From the NCBI GenBank assembly GCA_002356435.2, contig AP018040.2:1054001-1118000 (forward strand): 64,000 nucleotides of DNA, read 5' to 3'. The stretch's first letter is position 1. Each line of letters starts with the position of its first letter. Below the pieces are notes generated by a model. The model was not told the origin of the DNA. It ran no database searches and was given only the letters and a program-made list of their open reading frames with translations. This DNA comes from Petrimonas sp. IBARAKI (GTDB lineage: Bacteria > Bacteroidota > Bacteroidia > Bacteroidales > Dysgonomonadaceae). Below are positions 201-24,925 of the stretch, in pieces. The translations under genes were made by a program, and so were the position numbers.

Positions 201-1976
201 TTATTTTATATTCAACTCATACGGAATACGTGCTTGGATATAATCCTGATCTTTGAGGTTTTTCAAGAACATAAACTTATCGTAGCTTTCTCCCAGATAA
301 CTTTTTAACGTCTTGGCGGCCAATTCTTCCTTGTCTTTGCTGAAAATCTCCTCAAACGGTGACCTTATCCTTGGATACTCGAAAACAGCATAGCTTTTGC
401 CTAAATTAGCCATTTCAGCCGCGATACGGATAGCTTCATCGACCCCGCCCAGTTCATCTACCAATCCAATTTCCCTGGCCTGATTTCCTGTCCAAACCCT
501 GCCTTCGGCATATTTGGCCAGGCTATCTTTCAGCATTCCACGGCCTTCGGCACATCTGGTCAGGAACAGATCGTAACCGCTGTCCACATAAGCTTGCATC
601 ATCGCTGCTTCCTGAGCGTTAAAAGCTCGGGAAACGTCACCAAAATCAGAAAATTCGTTGGTTTTAACTACGTCCGTATCGATACCCAGTTTATCAAGTG
701 TGCCGCTAAAATTGGGAAACATACCGAAAATGCCGATAGAACCTGTGATGGTGGTGGGCTGAGCAACTATTTTATCAGCATTACACGCAATATAGTAGCC
801 GCCCGATGCAGCCATGTCACCCATAGAAACAACTACCGGTTTTTCCGACTTCAGATCGGAAATTGCTTTCCAGATTTGCTCCGAGGCATATGCGCTTCCG
901 CCTCCCGAATTGATGCGAAAAACAACCGCTTTAATGTCATCGTCTTTCCGAAGTTTTTCAATCTCGTTTACGAAATATTTATCCTGAATGCCATTAGGCC
1001 TATTGCCGGATGCAATTCCTCCTGTGGCGTATAGCAAGGCGATGGAGTTTGTTGATTTCCGTATAGCCGGTGTTTTTACTGATTTCATTTCCGCAACCGT
1101 TGCCGACGGAATTTTAGTGTCAGTATCTATCCCGAGCAGTTCCCGGACATAATTTTTCATTTCACTTTCGTAGAGAACGGTGTCGACTAAATTTCGGGAC
1201 AACAGGAAATCGGTTTTTCTGAGCATTGGAAACTGATTGGCGATCGAATCTATTTGCATAGTTTCCATATTTCTGGATGCAGCCATATCGGTTTTTATAG
1301 TATTCCAAATATCTGTAATGAATGAGTTCACCTGTTCTCTGTTGGCTTCACTCATTTCGGTTTGGGTAAAAGGCTCGGCAAAAGATTTATAAGTGCCCAC
1401 TTTAAACAGTTGCATTTCTACGCCGAGTTTCTGCAACGCGTCTTTATAAAACAGCGGAACCGAAGCAATTCCGTGAACATCGAGCATCCCCTGAGGATTG
1501 ATGGCCACCTTATCAGCAACAGAAGCCAGATAATAGCCGTTTTGAGTGTATGTATCGGCATATGCAACGATAAACTTGCCACTTTTTTTAAAATCCTCCA
1601 ACTCTTGCCGTATTTCTGCCAATGTAGCAGTGGAAGCTGCAAAAAGACGTGTATCCAGATAAATACCTTTTATCTTGTCGTTATTTTTTGCTTTACGGAT
1701 GGCTCCAATGATATCGTTCATACCTATGGCAGATGGGACTCCACCTACCAGGTCGGTAAACGGGTCACTTTCCGCAATACGTTCCTGTATGGCGCCTTCG
1801 AGTCTTAGATTTAAAACGGAGTTATTTTGCAATACAAATGATTCCTGTTTGCCAAAAGAACCCATGATCGAGCCCATCATAGCAAACATGATCAGCATTG
1901 AAATAAGCGAAAAAATAAAACTCGCGATGATGAAGCCCAATGCTGATGCAAACATCATTTTAAAGAAATCTTTCAT
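201..1976 (-). CDS. sppA: Signal peptide peptidase SppA, 67K type
   Basis: Membrane-anchored serine protease that degrades cleaved signal peptides. The 591-residue protein has an N-terminal membrane segment (about residues 10-35) and two tandem SppA/ClpP-like repeats, as in the long 67K form. The likely nucleophile is Ser391 in MAASGGYYIA, and the general-base lysine is probably Lys197 in GTYKSFAEPF (family knowledge). An open frame continues upstream to 2246, but a good promoter (TTG, 20 bp, TATTTTTG at 2006-2036) lies inside that extension. Translation therefore starts at the ATG at 1976, which also gives a normal N-terminus. The ECF sigma gene is divergent. lpxK follows downstream. Confidence 0.93.
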   Translation of the reverse strand: MKDFFKMMFASALGFIIASFIFSLISMLIMFAMMGSIMGSFGKQESFVLQNNSVLNLRLEGAIQERIAESDPFTDLVGGVPSAIGMNDIIGAIRKAKNNDKIKGIYLDTRLFAASTATLAEIRQELEDFKKSGKFIVAYADTYTQNGYYLASVADKVAINPQGMLDVHGIASVPLFYKDALQKLGVEMQLFKVGTYKSFAEPFTQTEMSEANREQVNSFITDIWNTIKTDMAASRNMETMQIDSIANQFPMLRKTDFLLSRNLVDTVLYESEMKNYVRELLGIDTDTKIPSATVAEMKSVKTPAIRKSTNSIALLYATGGIASGNRPNGIQDKYFVNEIEKLRKDDDIKAVVFRINSGGGSAYASEQIWKAISDLKSEKPVVVSMGDMAASGGYYIACNADKIVAQPTTITGSIGIFGMFPNFSGTLDKLGIDTDVVKTNEFSDFGDVSRAFNAQEAAMMQAYVDSGYDLFLTRCAEGRGMLKDSLAKYAEGRVWTGNQAREIGLVDELGGVDEAIRIAAEMANLGKSYAVFEYPRIRSPFEEIFSKDKEELAAKTLKSYLGESYDKFMFLKNLKDQDYIQARIPYELNIK

Positions 1977-2005
1977 AAATTTGTGTTCTAAATTGATTAT
2001 AAGCA

Positions 2006-2036
2006 CAAAAATAGAGAAAAAAGAATTATATTGCAA
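2006..2036 (-). promoter_or_regulatory. Housekeeping promoter of sppA
   Basis: On the minus strand there is TTG, a 20-bp spacer, then TATTTTTG (2006-2013), matching the Bacteroidota TAnnTTTG -7 element and its spacing. It sits 30 bp before the sppA ATG and excludes the longer open frame as the coding start. Confidence 0.7.
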
Positions 2037-2196
2037 TTGAAAACAATTACAATTTAGTTTCTTTATACTTGTAAGATAATTTATTATTGTAGTGATCGGG
2101 GTTTTATACCTCATAAATTGTTTTGAGAACAAAAGACCACGAAAGAACCTATAATAGTTAAAAAAATATAAAGAATAGGGGTGAATGGATAAACCG

Positions 2197-2223
2197 TGCA
2201 ACGTTTTTTCATTTTTTCCATCT
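2197..2223 (+). promoter_or_regulatory. ECF-type promoter in front of the sigma gene (autoregulatory candidate)
   Basis: TGCAAC at 2197-2202, a 16-bp T-rich spacer, then CATCT at 2219-2223, 21 bp before the sigma factor ATG. The same element, with 25 of 27 bases identical and the same 16-bp spacing, occurs at 24393-24419 before a lipoprotein gene. Such TGCAAC/CRTCT pairs resemble ECF sigma promoters of Bacteroidota. Use by the adjacent sigma factor is inferred. Confidence 0.65.
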
Positions 2224-2244
2224 TTACTAATGTAAGCGATAAGC

Positions 2245-2802
2245 ATGGATGATTCGCAGTTGATAACAGCATGTAAGAAGCAGAACCGGAATGCCCAAAA
2301 GGCATTGTATGAGTTGTATGCTCCGAAAATGATGGCTGTCTGCCTGCGTTATTGTCAAGATAATGAGACCGCTCGTGATGTGTTACACGACGGTTTTCTG
2401 CAGGTTTTTACGCAAATTGGCTCTTATTCGGGCAAGGGTTCTTTTGAAGGTTGGTTACGCAAGATTTTCGTTAATCTGGCTCTCGAAAATTATCGTCAGG
2501 AGAAAAAAAGGTTCAACTTTTTAAACGATTACGGAAAAGACAATTCAGACTTTTGGGATACTCCTGAGGATGACTCTCTCGAAGTAGGAGATATTCCGCG
2601 TCAAGAACTTCTGAATATTATTCGTGAGATGCCTGAAGGCTACAGAACGGTTTTCAACTTAGTGATTTTTGAGGATATACCTCATAAGGAAATTGGTGCA
2701 ATGCTGGGGATAACAGAAAACGCTTCCCGGTCGCAATATTTCAGAGCCAAGACTTTTTTACAAAAGAAAGTCCAATCCATGTTGAAGAAGAAATACATAT
2801 GA
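2245..2802 (+). CDS. ECF (RpoE-type) RNA polymerase sigma factor
   Basis: A 185-residue extracytoplasmic-function sigma factor. Region 2 spans about residues 10-80 (ALYELYAPKMMAVCLRYCQD, then FLQVFTQIGSYSGKGSFEGWL, typical of 2.1-2.4). Region 4 spans about 120-175 and carries a helix-turn-helix (HKEIGAMLGITENASRSQYF). There is no region 1 or 3. It would direct RNA polymerase to a small regulon under control of the next gene, which starts 6 bp after its stop and has an anti-sigma-like N-terminus. The promoter upstream is ECF-like rather than housekeeping, which suggests positive autoregulation. The specific signal cannot be told from the sequence. Confidence 0.92.
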   Translation: MDDSQLITACKKQNRNAQKALYELYAPKMMAVCLRYCQDNETARDVLHDGFLQVFTQIGSYSGKGSFEGWLRKIFVNLALENYRQEKKRFNFLNDYGKDNSDFWDTPEDDSLEVGDIPRQELLNIIREMPEGYRTVFNLVIFEDIPHKEIGAMLGITENASRSQYFRAKTFLQKKVQSMLKKKYI

Positions 2803-2808
2803 TCTTCT

Positions 2809-4173
2809 ATGAACGAAAAAGATATATTTAAAGAACAATTGAAGTCGGTTTTCAGCGATTTTGAAGCTCCTGTTCCCCCTGATGGCTGGGAGAAGGTAGA
2901 GCAGTCGCTTAATGCCATTAGGCGGGCGAGAATTATCCGCCGAAATTGGTATGTCGGCTCCGCAGCAGCTACTGCGGCATTAATACTGGGAAGTTTGTTC
3001 TTTTTGAATTCGCCTCATCCGGTCAAACCCGATCTCCCTGTTTTCACCGGGAAGATGGCACCTGAAAAAACAGGAAGCCTAGATACACAGGATACTCAAA
3101 TAGCAAAAACTGAAACGACAAAGAAGGAAAGTAACAAGGACAGTCAGGTTGGGTATTCTCTTCAAAAACAAGAGGTTTTGGTGGCCAGGTACACCAAAAG
3201 AAAAGAAAAGGTGTTGTCTGTAAACATAGACTTAGAACAAACTCCGGAAAAGATAGTGATTGCTGAACAAACTGTTGAAGTTAAGGCCGAGGCAATGGGA
3301 GAAAGAATAATTCGTCCTGAGGAAAGGCAGGTGGTTCAACCCAGTCAGGAAGAGGTTGACCGGCTCATTCAGGAGTTTGAGAATGCCGGGAAAGCTACAA
3401 TCTTTGAAGGTTTGGCGTTTGAAGATAAGAAGAGTAAACCTATTATGTTGGCACTGAACGCAAAAGGTGGACTTACTTCTTCGCGGAAAACCGTAAATAG
3501 TCCCATGACTTTGCGCAGTGCCAGTGCGGTCAAGCCATCTGAAAACGGAGATGGTCTTTATTCCGGATTAACGGGATCGAATAAGATGTATGCTGATTAC
3601 AGCAGTATCCCATTCAACAACCGAAGTATTGCTGATAACGTAGCCGAAATGGAACACGATCAGCCGGTTTCGTTCGGCATCACCGTTTCTAAAACCATTG
3701 TTGACAGGTTATCCATTGAAACCGGATTGGTTTATACCTATCTGTTCTCGCGGGCTAAAAACACCAGTGTTGATTTTCAAAATCAGGAGACGCAACATTT
3801 TCATTATTTAGGTATTCCAGTCAATCTAAATTATAACTTCGTGAATATAGGAAAACTGGGTTTGTTTGCATCCTTCGGAGGGATGGTTGAAAAAGATATT
3901 TACGGGGAATTCAGGAGTACGGGACAAAGTGTTTCAACTGAACTAAACAGTGCGTCTCAGGGGGTGATTACTACGAAAATCAGTCAGAAGAATCCACAGA
4001 TCTCAGTAAATGCAGGGGTAGGGGTGTTTTACCCTATTTACGGAGGATTTAATTTGTACGGCAAGGTTGGTGGGGTTTATTACTTTGATGCAAAAAACTA
4101 TGAATATAAAACGATATATACCGACAAGAAAATCGGTTTCGATTTGAATGCGGGGATCCGATTTGATTTCTAA
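2809..4173 (+). CDS. Anti-sigma-like protein fused to an outer-membrane beta-barrel-like domain
   Basis: This 454-residue protein directly follows the ECF sigma gene. The N-terminal 46 residues look cytoplasmic and contain PPDGWEKVEQSL, a pattern seen at the start of many Bacteroidota anti-sigma/porin-family proteins. One membrane segment follows at about 48-67, then a charged Lys/Glu/Gln-rich linker to about 225. The C-terminal 200 residues are rich in alternating aromatic and polar residues (VSFGITVSKTIVDRLSIETG, then HYLGIPVNLNYNF) and end in Phe, as outer-membrane barrels do. No zinc-binding anti-sigma motif was found. Likely roles are to hold the sigma factor at the membrane and sense envelope state, but the combined topology is odd (see findings). 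Confidence 0.7.
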   Translation: MNEKDIFKEQLKSVFSDFEAPVPPDGWEKVEQSLNAIRRARIIRRNWYVGSAAATAALILGSLFFLNSPHPVKPDLPVFTGKMAPEKTGSLDTQDTQIAKTETTKKESNKDSQVGYSLQKQEVLVARYTKRKEKVLSVNIDLEQTPEKIVIAEQTVEVKAEAMGERIIRPEERQVVQPSQEEVDRLIQEFENAGKATIFEGLAFEDKKSKPIMLALNAKGGLTSSRKTVNSPMTLRSASAVKPSENGDGLYSGLTGSNKMYADYSSIPFNNRSIADNVAEMEHDQPVSFGITVSKTIVDRLSIETGLVYTYLFSRAKNTSVDFQNQETQHFHYLGIPVNLNYNFVNIGKLGLFASFGGMVEKDIYGEFRSTGQSVSTELNSASQGVITTKISQKNPQISVNAGVGVFYPIYGGFNLYGKVGGVYYFDAKNYEYKTIYTDKKIGFDLNAGIRFDF

Positions 4174-4197: not shown

Positions 4198-4908
4198 ATG
4201 TATATGAGAAAATTGATTTTATTTTTTAGTGTTGTGATTGCTGGACTCTTTTTGACTTCATGCTTAGAGGCCGGAGATAGTAACTTTTCAGGTCAGCGGC
4301 AATTGTTTTATATTACTCAATTAGAGGGAACACAAGTTGCCCATAACGGAGATTTTGTGATGACTTCCAATGAGATTAAATCGAAAGATCCGGACAGGTG
4401 GTACCTTATTACCTGGTCGTGGAGTACCGAAAACGGTATGGTCAGTACAAATGTACATAACGCTATAACACCGGAAATAGAGCAAATACCTCTTGGCGTA
4501 TATTCTCAACAAGAGGCTCCTCAAGAAACCATGACTCCTGTCCTTAACTTTAACATGGTTGGGGGGTTGCCCATAGCTGGTTCATTTGGTGACTTCCTGA
4601 TTGTTCAATATGTATGGAATAAGAAAGAAGGCGAAAAAGTACAGGCGAAACTCTATAATGAAACCACTCAACCAGATGCAACGGATACATATATACTGGA
4701 ATTGCGTTTAGAAAAATCCGGCACTTCCACGGAAACTTCTGGAAAGAATGTTGATGGTTTTGCAGCATTTGACGTGAGTTCATTGCGTAGTCTGGTTAAC
4801 TTTAACGGACAAGATTTTAAAGATATCCAGTTAAAATTCAATTATTACAAAGAAAATGCAGGACAGCCAACCAGCGTTACACAGCCTGTCAGGATATATA
4901 AAAACTGA
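4198..4908 (+). CDS. Lipoprotein of unknown function, third gene of the ECF unit
   Basis: A 236-residue predicted lipoprotein. The signal peptide ends in LFLTSC with Cys22 as the lipidated residue (numbered from the first ATG; a second ATG two codons on would serve as well). The mature part looks beta-rich, with conserved-looking WYLITWSWSTENG and a closing FNYYKENAGQ segment. I do not recognise the family; a NigD-like or other small envelope lipoprotein is possible. It begins 24 bp after the anti-sigma/barrel gene in the same direction and is followed by a strong terminator, so it is probably part of the sigma operon and may act at the outer membrane in the same stress response. Confidence 0.75.
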   Translation: MYMRKLILFFSVVIAGLFLTSCLEAGDSNFSGQRQLFYITQLEGTQVAHNGDFVMTSNEIKSKDPDRWYLITWSWSTENGMVSTNVHNAITPEIEQIPLGVYSQQEAPQETMTPVLNFNMVGGLPIAGSFGDFLIVQYVWNKKEGEKVQAKLYNETTQPDATDTYILELRLEKSGTSTETSGKNVDGFAAFDVSSLRSLVNFNGQDFKDIQLKFNYYKENAGQPTSVTQPVRIYKN

Positions 4909-4986: not shown

Positions 4987-5030
4987 ATCAGAGAAAAACA
5001 AGGCTAACCTTGTTTTTCTCTGATTTTTTA
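4987..5030 (+). terminator. Strong intrinsic terminator after the ECF unit
   Basis: A perfect 17-bp inverted repeat (4987-5003 and 5008-5024) with a 4-base CTAA loop, followed by TTTTTT. It closes the sigma, anti-sigma/barrel and lipoprotein unit. Confidence 0.85.
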
Positions 5031-5034
5031 TATA

Positions 5035-5420
5035 TAAAAGTTTACACTTTCTTGTTTATGCATCTGTTCAGGTGTTTTCACATGACAAAACCAATGAGGC
5101 CTTTTGATTGTTGATGCGCACGGCATCTTTAACCAACCATCTCATTGTTTTTATATCAACTTGATACTCCTCGATTAAAAACTCCTATTTTAATATACCG
5201 TTCACCCTTTCTGCAATTGCATTCGCATACGGATCATAGCTTTCGGTCATACCCGGTGTTATCTTTTTGCTATTTAGTGCATTCTGATGATCGTTTTTTT
5301 GCCACCAATATAAGTTATATCGGAAACCCATACCTGTTCTGGATGGTTTAACTGCGTACCCTCCACTAGATTCTTATACTTTTTGAATCTATGATGAGAG
5401 TCGGTGGTTATCCTGTAATC
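5035..5420 (-). pseudogene. Decayed IS3-family transposase (OrfB) fragment
   Basis: Minus-strand translation gives recognisable pieces of an IS3-type DDE integrase: HHRFKKYKNLVEG and PEQVWVSDITYIGG (around the second catalytic Asp), then after a gap ITPGMTESYDPYANAIAERV (around the catalytic Glu), EFLIEEYQVD, and in another frame PHWFCHVKTPEQMHK. It carries in-frame stops (after VNGILK), at least two frameshifts, and a deletion of roughly 80 residues between ITYIGG and the next block. The N-terminal half and OrfA are missing, so the element is dead. The sequence TGACTAGTCCTAAATAAGCG at 4935-4954 could be a surviving terminal repeat, but no partner end was found. The rest of the 4909-5525 interval holds only the two terminators. 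Confidence 0.85.
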
Positions 5421-5525: not shown

Positions 5526-7466
5526 TTATTCTTCGCTCTTTGTTTCTTCAGTTTTATTTTCAACTGTTTCTTCTGCTTCAGTTGCAATTTTAGGTTCATC
5601 CTTCACTTCTGCCTCAGCAACTTTTGCTTCCTCTTCTTTATTAGCTTTTGCCTTAGCTTCTTTCTTGAAAGCTGCCACCTTTTGGTTGTCGAGTTTTTCT
5701 TTCAGAGCAGCGAGTTCTTCGATATCACCCAACGTGGTTTTTTCCATTACTGGAATTGCCATTGTTGATGATTGGTTTTCTTTCTTACCCGAACGTTTGC
5801 CTTTTCTGCTTTCGTCAGAACCGCCTCCTTGAGCATCCTCGTGAATACGGCTGTGAGAAACAATAATGCGTTTAGCATCTTTATTGAACTCGATAACTTT
5901 AAATTCCAGTTTTTCGTCCACTTGAGCTTGTGAACCGTCTTCTTTCACCAGGTGTTTTGGAGTAGCAAAACCTTCTACACCGTAAGGCAATGCGATTACT
6001 GCACCTTTGTCGACAAATTCGAGAATTGTCCCTTCGTGAACCGAACCAGCTGTGAAAATGGTTTCAAATACATCCCACGGATTTTCTTCCAATTGTTTAT
6101 GCCCAAGGCTTAAACGACGATTCTCTTTATCAATTTCCAGAACCTGAACTTTAATTGGAGCTCCGATTTCGGTAACTTCGCTTGGATGTTTAATTTTTTT
6201 CGTCCAGGATAAATCGGAAATATGGATCAATCCTTCAACACCTTCTTCAATTTCAACGAAGGCACCAAAGTTGGTGAAGTTCCGAACGGTTGCTGTGTGG
6301 GTGCTTCCAACAGGATATTTCTCTTCGATGTTATCCCATGGATCGGGCTTGAGTTGTTTTACGCCGAGCGACATTTTTCTCTCCTCGCGATCGAGTGTCA
6401 GGATAACGGCTTCTACCTCGTCGCCCACTTTCATAAAGTCTTGTGCGCTGTGCAGATGCTGTGTCCAGCTCATTTCCGATACGTGGATCAATCCTTCTAC
6501 GCCCGCTGCAACTTCAACAAATGCTCCGTAATCCGCTATAACTACCACTTTTCCCTTAACGATATCGCCTACTTTCAGGCTGTCGTCCATGGCATCCCAC
6601 GGATGTGGGGTTAACTGTTTCAATCCAAGGGCGATGCGCTTTTTGTCATCATCAAAGTCGAGAATTACCACGTTGATCTTATCGTCCAGTTTAACCACTT
6701 CGTCCGGATGTTGGATACGTCCCCAGGAAAGGTCGGTAATGTGGATCAAGCCGTCAACGCCGCCGAGGTCAACAAATACACCGTAGGAGGTAACATTTTT
6801 AACCACTCCTTCGAGTACCTGTCCTTTTTCGAGTTTCGAAATAATTTCCTTTTTCTGTTGTTCCAGCTCTTCTTCAATAAGGGCTTTGTGGGAAACAACT
6901 ACATTCTTGAATTCAGGATTGATTTTTACCACCTTGAATTCCATTGTTTTGTCAACAAAGATATCGTAGTCGCGGATAGGTTTCACATCGATTTGAGAAC
7001 CTGGCAGGAACGCTTCGATACCGAATACATCCACAATCATACCGCCTTTTGTACGGCATTTGATGTATCCTTTGATTACTTCGTTGTTTTCTAATGCTGC
7101 GTTTACGCGATCCCATGAACGCGAAGCACGTGCTTTTTTGTGAGAAAGGATCAACTGTCCTTTTTTGTCTTCCTGGCTCTCGATGTAAACCTCTACCTCG
7201 TCGCCAACTTTCAATTCAGGGTTGTAGCGGAATTCGTTCATCGATACCACGCCGTCTGATTTGTAGCCGATGTTTACAACCACTTCGCGTTTGTTCATGG
7301 AGGTTACCGTACCGGTTACCACTTCTTTATCGTTGATTTTGCTCAACGTGTTGTCGTAGCTTTCGGTAAGTTTTTCTTTGTTTTCTTTGGAGTAGACGTC
7401 ACCTTTTGCGTAAGCATCCCAATCGAATTCCTCTATGGGAGCTACAGTTTTTAAATTGTCAGTCAT
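5526..7466 (-). CDS. rpsA: 30S ribosomal protein S1
   Basis: A 646-residue S1 protein that binds mRNA and helps deliver it to the 30S subunit. Six S1/OB repeats are visible at roughly 45-115, 130-200, 215-290, 300-375, 385-460 and 470-545. Repeats 3-5 carry the clear G-(V/A)-FV-(D/E)-x-GV-(D/E)-GLIH-(V/I)-(T/S) signature. The last 90 residues are a Lys/Glu/Ala-rich, probably disordered tail, longer than in proteobacterial S1. It has its own strong promoter and a bidirectional terminator, and appears monocistronic. Confidence 0.97.
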   Translation of the reverse strand: MTDNLKTVAPIEEFDWDAYAKGDVYSKENKEKLTESYDNTLSKINDKEVVTGTVTSMNKREVVVNIGYKSDGVVSMNEFRYNPELKVGDEVEVYIESQEDKKGQLILSHKKARASRSWDRVNAALENNEVIKGYIKCRTKGGMIVDVFGIEAFLPGSQIDVKPIRDYDIFVDKTMEFKVVKINPEFKNVVVSHKALIEEELEQQKKEIISKLEKGQVLEGVVKNVTSYGVFVDLGGVDGLIHITDLSWGRIQHPDEVVKLDDKINVVILDFDDDKKRIALGLKQLTPHPWDAMDDSLKVGDIVKGKVVVIADYGAFVEVAAGVEGLIHVSEMSWTQHLHSAQDFMKVGDEVEAVILTLDREERKMSLGVKQLKPDPWDNIEEKYPVGSTHTATVRNFTNFGAFVEIEEGVEGLIHISDLSWTKKIKHPSEVTEIGAPIKVQVLEIDKENRRLSLGHKQLEENPWDVFETIFTAGSVHEGTILEFVDKGAVIALPYGVEGFATPKHLVKEDGSQAQVDEKLEFKVIEFNKDAKRIIVSHSRIHEDAQGGGSDESRKGKRSGKKENQSSTMAIPVMEKTTLGDIEELAALKEKLDNQKVAAFKKEAKAKANKEEEAKVAEAEVKDEPKIATEAEETVENKTEETKSEE

Positions 7467-24392: not shown

Positions 24393-24419
24393 TGCAACGT
24401 TTTTTCGTTTTTTTCATCT
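24393..24419 (+). promoter_or_regulatory. ECF-type promoter, second copy of the sigma-gene promoter motif
   Basis: TGCAAC at 24393-24398, a 16-bp T-rich spacer, CATCT at 24415-24419, 26 bp before the lipoprotein ATG. 25 of 27 bases match the element at 2197-2223. It suggests this gene is a target of the ECF sigma factor encoded at 2245-2802. Confidence 0.65.
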
Positions 24420-24445: not shown

Positions 24446-24925
24446 ATGAATCAGATGAGGAAATATAGAATCTTCACAGTGTTTTTTTTAATCATCGTCA
24501 CAACGGCAATACTCTTCTCTTGTTCCAGGGAAGATGCGTTAGGTTTGGAAAGTGATGTACTTGAATTACAATCGCCTTACGGCCGATGGAAGCTCGAAGG
24601 ATATGCCAGTTCGGAAAGTAAGCAGGTTACGATAGTTCTAGGTTCTCCGTCGGCGTATTACCTGACGTTGAACCAAGACGGTACCTTTACCGGAACCTCA
24701 TCTACTAATGCAATCGGTGGGAAATTTACCATAGACACGCACAGAGGCGTTATAAATTTTTCGACGACAGATTTTTACTCTTCAGGCAAGCTGACTGAAA
24801 CAAACGACGGCAACTTATACCTGAACCGGCTGTTAAAAGTGAAAAATTACAGGGTTTTCACCAATAAACTGCATTTCTACTATTCAGACAAAGAATACCT
24901 GCTTTTTATTAAGCCTGTTAAATAA
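24446..24925 (+). CDS. Small lipoprotein, lipocalin/META-like, probable ECF target
   Basis: A 159-residue predicted lipoprotein with a signal peptide ending LFSC (Cys26). The mature part begins with a short linker, then PYGRWKLEGYASSES and LTLNQDGTFTGTSSTN, an order of beta strands seen in lipocalin-like and META/HslJ-type bacterial domains. I infer a small beta-barrel ligand- or stress-related envelope protein. It is monocistronic. The promoter is the ECF-type element shared with the sigma gene 22 kb away. No homologue can be named with certainty. Confidence 0.75.
   Translation: MNQMRKYRIFTVFFLIIVTTAILFSCSREDALGLESDVLELQSPYGRWKLEGYASSESKQVTIVLGSPSAYYLTLNQDGTFTGTSSTNAIGGKFTIDTHRGVINFSTTDFYSSGKLTETNDGNLYLNRLLKVKNYRVFTNKLHFYYSDKEYLLFIKPVK

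Follow-up and report, generated by a model that had tools for sequence, protein, structure and literature searches.

The intact ORF at positions 2809-4173 (plus strand; stop codon at 4171-4173) of the window, the 64,000-nt stretch of the Petrimonas sp. IBARAKI genome analyzed here, raises the question of how a 454-amino-acid protein that looks like an inner-membrane anti-sigma factor can also end in an outer-membrane barrel. The genome that carries the window is a single contig of 3.69 Mb. The original prediction held that such a protein could not insert a barrel in the outer membrane unless it bridged both membranes or the barrel part was soluble, and that a bridging sensor reporting outer-membrane assembly to a sigma factor would be novel. 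In our analysis, a bridge from the cytoplasm to the outer membrane is the best reading of the modeled barrel, whereas the novelty fails, the class having been published. The domain layout, the barrel fold, the operon, the conserved promoter, and the predicted targets described below were established by computation.

The gene is the second of a three-gene operon. A gap of 6 nt separates it from the upstream gene (2245-2802, plus strand), which encodes a Das/EcfO-like ECF sigma factor, the putative cognate sigma, with Pfam matches to region 2 (Sigma70_r2, 50 bits) and region 4 (Sigma70_r4_2, 48.4 bits) that both exceed the cut-off. The third gene (4198-4908, plus strand) encodes a lipoprotein with the lipobox LTSC, recognized by eye, and a weak resemblance to NigD_C. 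Its assignment as a NigD lipoprotein was ruled out by scores below both curated cut-offs (22.3 versus 22.6 bits for the Pfam model NigD_C and 18.8 versus 60 bits for the NCBIfam model NF051862), and NigD_C matches at E ≤ 0.01 were obtained for 2 of 25 downstream proteins. On the minus strand at 5000-5400, broken frames recognized by eye only resemble the end of an IS3-type transposase; a decayed insertion element likely separates the operon from the large ORF 5526-7466.

Two overlapping sets of relatives were compared. In the whole-genome search, all 31 loci, of which the own genome contributes two, have a sigma gene directly upstream. In the scan of named genomes, the best 80 of 169 matches were kept and gave 79 loci, referred to here as the named loci; these relatives belong to the Bacteroidota, and the nearer ones are mostly Dysgonomonadaceae where the genus is given. 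All 79 named loci carry a sigma ORF, which ends within 150 nt upstream in 75 of them, the remaining four (L079, L099, L100, and L108) having mechanically over-extended starts. A chance ORF or a fusion artefact is excluded by the full-length layout in 79/79 named loci and by the presence of a match in 27 of the 41 genomes searched, own genome included. As for the third gene, among these loci from the best 80 of 169 matches, an ORF of at least 180 amino acids starts near the end of the anti-sigma gene in 67 of the 76 that have at least 500 nt of downstream sequence, a simple pattern finds a lipobox-like Cys in 57 of those 67 ORFs, and 52 of the 79 contain a BLAST match (E ≤ 1e-3) to the third-gene lipoprotein.

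The two TGCAAC promoters of the original prediction proved to be real. The operon's predicted ECF promoter, TGCAAC-GTTTTTTCATTTTTTC-CATCT (2197-2223, plus strand), lies 21 nt ahead of the start codon of the sigma gene, and another predicted promoter of this type is located at 24393-24419 (plus strand); such a promoter also precedes the evident orthologue in G006 (L185). In 100 dinucleotide shuffles of the window, no match was obtained. When the 120 nt preceding the sigma gene were scanned in the 79 named relatives (best 80 of 169 matches), 43 showed the promoter in a strict form and 67 in a relaxed form, with the element standing 19-25 nt before the sigma start; the relaxed pattern was not found upstream of sigma in the other 12. 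Mononucleotide shuffles gave means of 0.01 (largest 1) for the strict form and 0.37 (largest 4) for the relaxed form. The neighboring sppA gene (201-2246, minus strand) has its listed ORF start at 2246, and in a translation begun at 1973 the SppA match already appears from residue 19; the longer start would make sppA overlap the sigma promoter.

A genome-wide search with the pattern TGCARCNTTTN{11,13}CATCT, using the reversed pattern as a control, returned 9 matches in the own genome versus 0 for the control. Nine genomes of the genus, including this genome and another of its species, together gave 77 matches versus 2 reversed; the control matches occurred in G002, which has the pair and one site, and in G003, which has three sites, with one each. 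The 9 own-genome sites correspond to this operon and eight further genes, all of which encode products with a signal sequence by eye and six a lipobox Cys. One of them, the predicted regulon member at 24446-24925 (plus strand), is a 159-amino-acid lipoprotein whose META/lipocalin-like matches are weak and fall below cut-off. The gene behind site 483837 (G000:C1; L163:2579-3313) encodes a NigD1/NigD2-family lipoprotein that satisfies the curated cut-offs of NF051862 (214 versus 60 bits), NigD_C (88.2 versus 22.6), and NigD_N (57.7 versus 24.3), and its evident orthologues follow such sites in G003 (L184) and G004 (L188); none of the other seven predicted targets outside the operon reached the NigD Pfam models. 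Inspection of 27 further genus loci from the 77 sites (L171, L179, and L186 overlap) revealed 5 sites that precede the sigma gene itself and 19 followed by a gene for an exported-looking protein, judged by eye, several of these products being evident orthologues of the own-genome targets. The other three lack such a product: L178 has no ORF start, the product at L194 is not evidently exported, and L195 has no 60-amino-acid ORF in the stretch. From the distribution of sites, the pair's regulon is predicted to comprise eight envelope-protein genes, mostly for lipoproteins, plus the own operon.

It could also be that the TGCARC/CATCT sites serve another ECF sigma factor or a group of them and that control by the pair hardly extends past its own operon, an unlikely explanation that nevertheless carries appreciable weight. 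The own genome contains 31 sigma region-4 matches, 27 of them over the cut-off, so other ECF sigmas could use similar sites, and the G004 draft has 7 sites although no such sigma/anti-sigma pair was found in it. However, the G004 draft also lacks sppA, the gene next to the pair in G003 and the window, and thus an assembly gap is likely. Two further observations argue against other sigmas as the users of these sites: the element precedes this particular sigma gene at a near-fixed distance in distant relatives, and a paralogous second pair in the own genome (L062) lacks the promoter pattern in its upstream region. Control of the predicted targets by the sigma factor of the window pair remains our preferred reading.

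The protein was modeled with AlphaFold2 from an alignment of 70 sequences (whole-chain mean pLDDT 68.6, pTM 0.52). The N-terminal segment (residues 1-46; 2809-2946, plus strand) is cytoplasmic and putatively sigma-binding; its conservation is confined to residues 17-35 and includes Trp27, invariant in 70/70 rows. Given the pTM value and the pLDDT of 62-71 for residues 1-40, the model does not fix how the domains are arranged relative to one another. The single membrane helix, originally placed at residues 48-67, was borne out at approximately 47-66 (2947-3006, plus strand). A call by hydropathy only was rejected: the top hydrophobic 19-mer begins at residue 48 with a mean of 1.79, a value reached by 119 of 1000 composition shuffles and thus weak evidence for the helix taken alone. 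The call therefore rests on conservation and on the AlphaFold2 model. In the alignment, segment 47-66 has an occupancy of 0.96 with basic residues followed by a hydrophobic consensus; the best 19-mer within the first 150 residues reaches at least 1.75 in 79/79 named homologues (best 80 of 169 matches), and the model places one long helix at 26-64 with low confidence (10-residue means 49-71).

Residues 67-211 (3007-3441, plus strand) form the predicted periplasm-crossing tether, which is mostly disordered in the AlphaFold2 model, with approximately 87 of its 145 residues in segments below pLDDT 50, which make up most of the stretch 67-207. The long charged linker of the original prediction is evident here, 49 of the 144 residues at 68-211 being charged (23 K+R, 26 D+E). 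The commonest-residue frequency is only 0.20 over residues 67-178, and the equivalents of residues 67-210 are 98-165 residues long across the 70 rows (median 136). A single helix, QEEVDRLIQEFENA, occupies residues 180-193 (window 3346-3387) and is conserved mainly among closer relatives. A tether so long, charged, and poorly conserved would tolerate cutting, and the loose relative placement of domains in the model agrees with the possibility that the chain is cut after assembly into an independent outer-membrane barrel and a short inner-membrane anti-sigma factor, with no steady-state bridge. Against such a cut chain, the fusion is kept in all 79 named relatives (best 80 of 169 matches), the tether length varies only within the above range, and the published relatives, in the accessible parts of their descriptions, are one chain from the cytoplasm to the outer membrane or the surface (PMC13088901, PMC9308784, PMC13114119). 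We regard cutting after assembly as quite unlikely and retain the continuous bridge.

Residues 212-454 (3442-4170, plus strand) form an 8-stranded outer-membrane barrel with Phe as the final residue. The structure prediction, proposed earlier as a check, returned this barrel with confidence: strands span 212-453, and the 10-residue pLDDT means are 80-98 from residue 281 onward. With short breaks joined, the strands were read as 212-221, 278-298, 301-319, 323-347, 350-376, 381-409, 414-425, and 442-453. Among solved structures compared with residues 208-454 by VIA-align, the OprF barrel was the best match (Z 16.7, 131 residues, 2.4 Å), followed closely by NspA (15.2), OmpA (14.7), and OmpW (14.1); a designed transmembrane barrel, a Thermus outer-membrane protein, and a Legionella porin were also close, and Foldseek likewise ranked OmpA-type barrels and Legionella porins at the top. 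The window protein matches the Pfam model OMP_b-brl_2 with an E-value of 8e-6 and 26.4 bits, slightly below the cut-off of 27, and at E ≤ 0.01 this model is matched by 70/70 and OMP_b-brl by 65/70 rows of the alignment (A3). The barrel features noted earlier at the C-terminus, including the terminal Phe, were upheld across the relatives: the last residue is Phe in 64/70 rows, and an aromatic residue falls within the last three in 70/70. Because the strand number is even, the barrel starts and ends on the periplasmic side, which allows the tether and the barrel to be one chain. A periplasmic or inner-membrane location, with the domain serving as a beta domain through which an ordinary single-span anti-sigma factor binds a ligand, would fit the unusual inner-membrane anchor and the Pfam score just under the cut-off but is extremely improbable in view of the confident match to OprF, OmpA, OmpW, and NspA and the conserved C-terminal aromatic residue.

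Directly after barrel strand 1 lies a conserved segment, VNSPMTLRSA (residues 229-238; 3493-3522, plus strand), with a commonest-residue frequency of 0.65 that is level with the barrel core, compared to only 0.17 for residues 239-274. AlphaFold2 places it poorly, with low pLDDT, and the strand count assigns it to the outer side. The segment is a possible site for a partner or a signal. That it acts as a surface-exposed or lumen-plugging sensor with the lipoprotein 4198-4908 as its dedicated partner is very doubtful; if true, the operon would form a switch of three parts, with a surface lipoprotein determining whether the sigma factor is held by the barrel and its tether.

The one-chain mechanism that we consider highly probable runs as follows. 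Residues 1-46 would hold the neighboring ECF sigma factor at the inner membrane, helix 47-66 would cross that membrane, and the disordered tether of approximately 145 residues would span the periplasm to the barrel in the outer membrane. A disturbance of the outer membrane or of the barrel would cause the hold on sigma to be lost, whereupon the freed sigma would activate its own operon from the 2197-2223 promoter (auto-activation) and also induce envelope proteins, mostly lipoproteins, including the one of the NigD1/NigD2 family. As a first guess at how the signal would travel along the tether, a periplasmic protease may cut it. By analogy with published relatives, sigma binding, outer-membrane stress as the signal, and sigma release are most likely; the more specific proposals made originally, that the N-terminus binds sigma and that the protein reports outer-membrane assembly in particular, are putative.

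RseA-type and FecR-type anti-sigma factors are, like the window protein, single-span inner-membrane anti-sigmas of envelope ECF sigmas. To our knowledge, they have no barrel of their own and the state of the outer membrane is sensed through other proteins. A closer parallel is the paralogous pair elsewhere in this genome (G000:C1:604220-606045; L062), where a sigma gene is likewise followed by a gene for a protein, of 419 amino acids, with a transmembrane helix, a tether, and a barrel match. This pair differs in that the 35% identity to the window protein is confined to the barrel, and a NigD1/NigD2-family gene (236 bits) stands upstream of its sigma gene (L062:1310-4046; G000:C1:603309-606045). 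A Bacteroides homologue (L149, from the genome of L135, Bacteroides sp. 519) aligns with the window protein end to end (24% identity, 470 columns, E 2e-28) and is encoded next to a sigma gene and to one that exceeds the cut-off set for the NigD1/NigD2 model; the sigma factors of these two pairs of the same layout are 42% identical. In the sigma tree, the window pair falls in a separate, mainly Dysgonomonadaceae clade (13 rows, support 97/90). One-to-one orthology with Bacteroides Dma1 was unsupported by this tree, in which the NigD1-type Bacteroides sigmas belong to another clade.

Searches of titles and abstracts for anti-sigma factors in Proteiniphilum, Petrimonas, or Dysgonomonas and for an ECF sigma with TGCAAC found none on this pair or promoter, and a Petrimonas paper contains "anti-sigma" three times (PMC7768429). 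Related devices are, however, described in papers that were accessible in part, and they remove the novelty claimed for a bridging anti-sigma factor. The Dma family of B. thetaiotaomicron combines an anti-sigma part, one transmembrane helix, a long disordered tether, and a C-terminal barrel; mutation of dma1 or dma2 increases vesiculation via the cognate sigma, for Dma1 through NigD1, and the NigD1/NigD2 family is tied to vesiculation in this species (PMC13088901). A P. vulgatus anti-sigma factor reported in 2022 was predicted to cross the periplasm and to carry an outer-membrane barrel at its C-terminus, and its loss led to longer O-antigen, with envelope stress named as the likely trigger (PMC9308784); a subsequent account has this protein traverse all five compartments and names outer-membrane stress as what it likely senses, and anti-sigma loss in the published relative led to NigD production (PMC13114119). 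In the portions available, PMC7366714 reports a B. fragilis EcfO promoter motif as identified and does not give the motif itself, PMC12596196 cites Das1/Dma1 without further detail, and PMC7406223 makes no mention of barrels or ECF21.

Dma1/Das1 and Dma2/Das2 share with the window pair the four-domain layout and the adjacent ECF sigma, and a three-gene operon, as at the window locus, is stated for Dma2 (PMC13088901, accessible part). They are distant in sequence, as gauged by the Bacteroides homologue at 24% identity, Dma1 itself being compared by description; unlike Dma/Das, the window pair has a sigma factor of the separate clade and a third-gene lipoprotein that is only weakly NigD-like. 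EcfO-Reo of Phocaeicola vulgatus and Bacteroides fragilis, likened here by description, also consists of a sigma factor followed by a periplasm-spanning anti-sigma factor with an outer-membrane barrel, and its regulon holds NigD lipoproteins, compared to the one of eight other predicted targets that reaches NigD models here (PMC9308784 and PMC13114119, accessible parts). The presence of a NigD1/NigD2 target here and of NigD genes in the published regulons suggests that NigD-type lipoproteins are a shared output of the class. The window protein is thus a further example of the published Dma/Reo-type two-membrane anti-sigma class, which extends the one-chain, surface-to-cytoplasm anti-sigma factors from Bacteroides/Phocaeicola to the Dysgonomonadaceae. 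What is new here is a promoter signature, read from sequence, and a short predicted target list for such a pair, which make its regulon directly testable.
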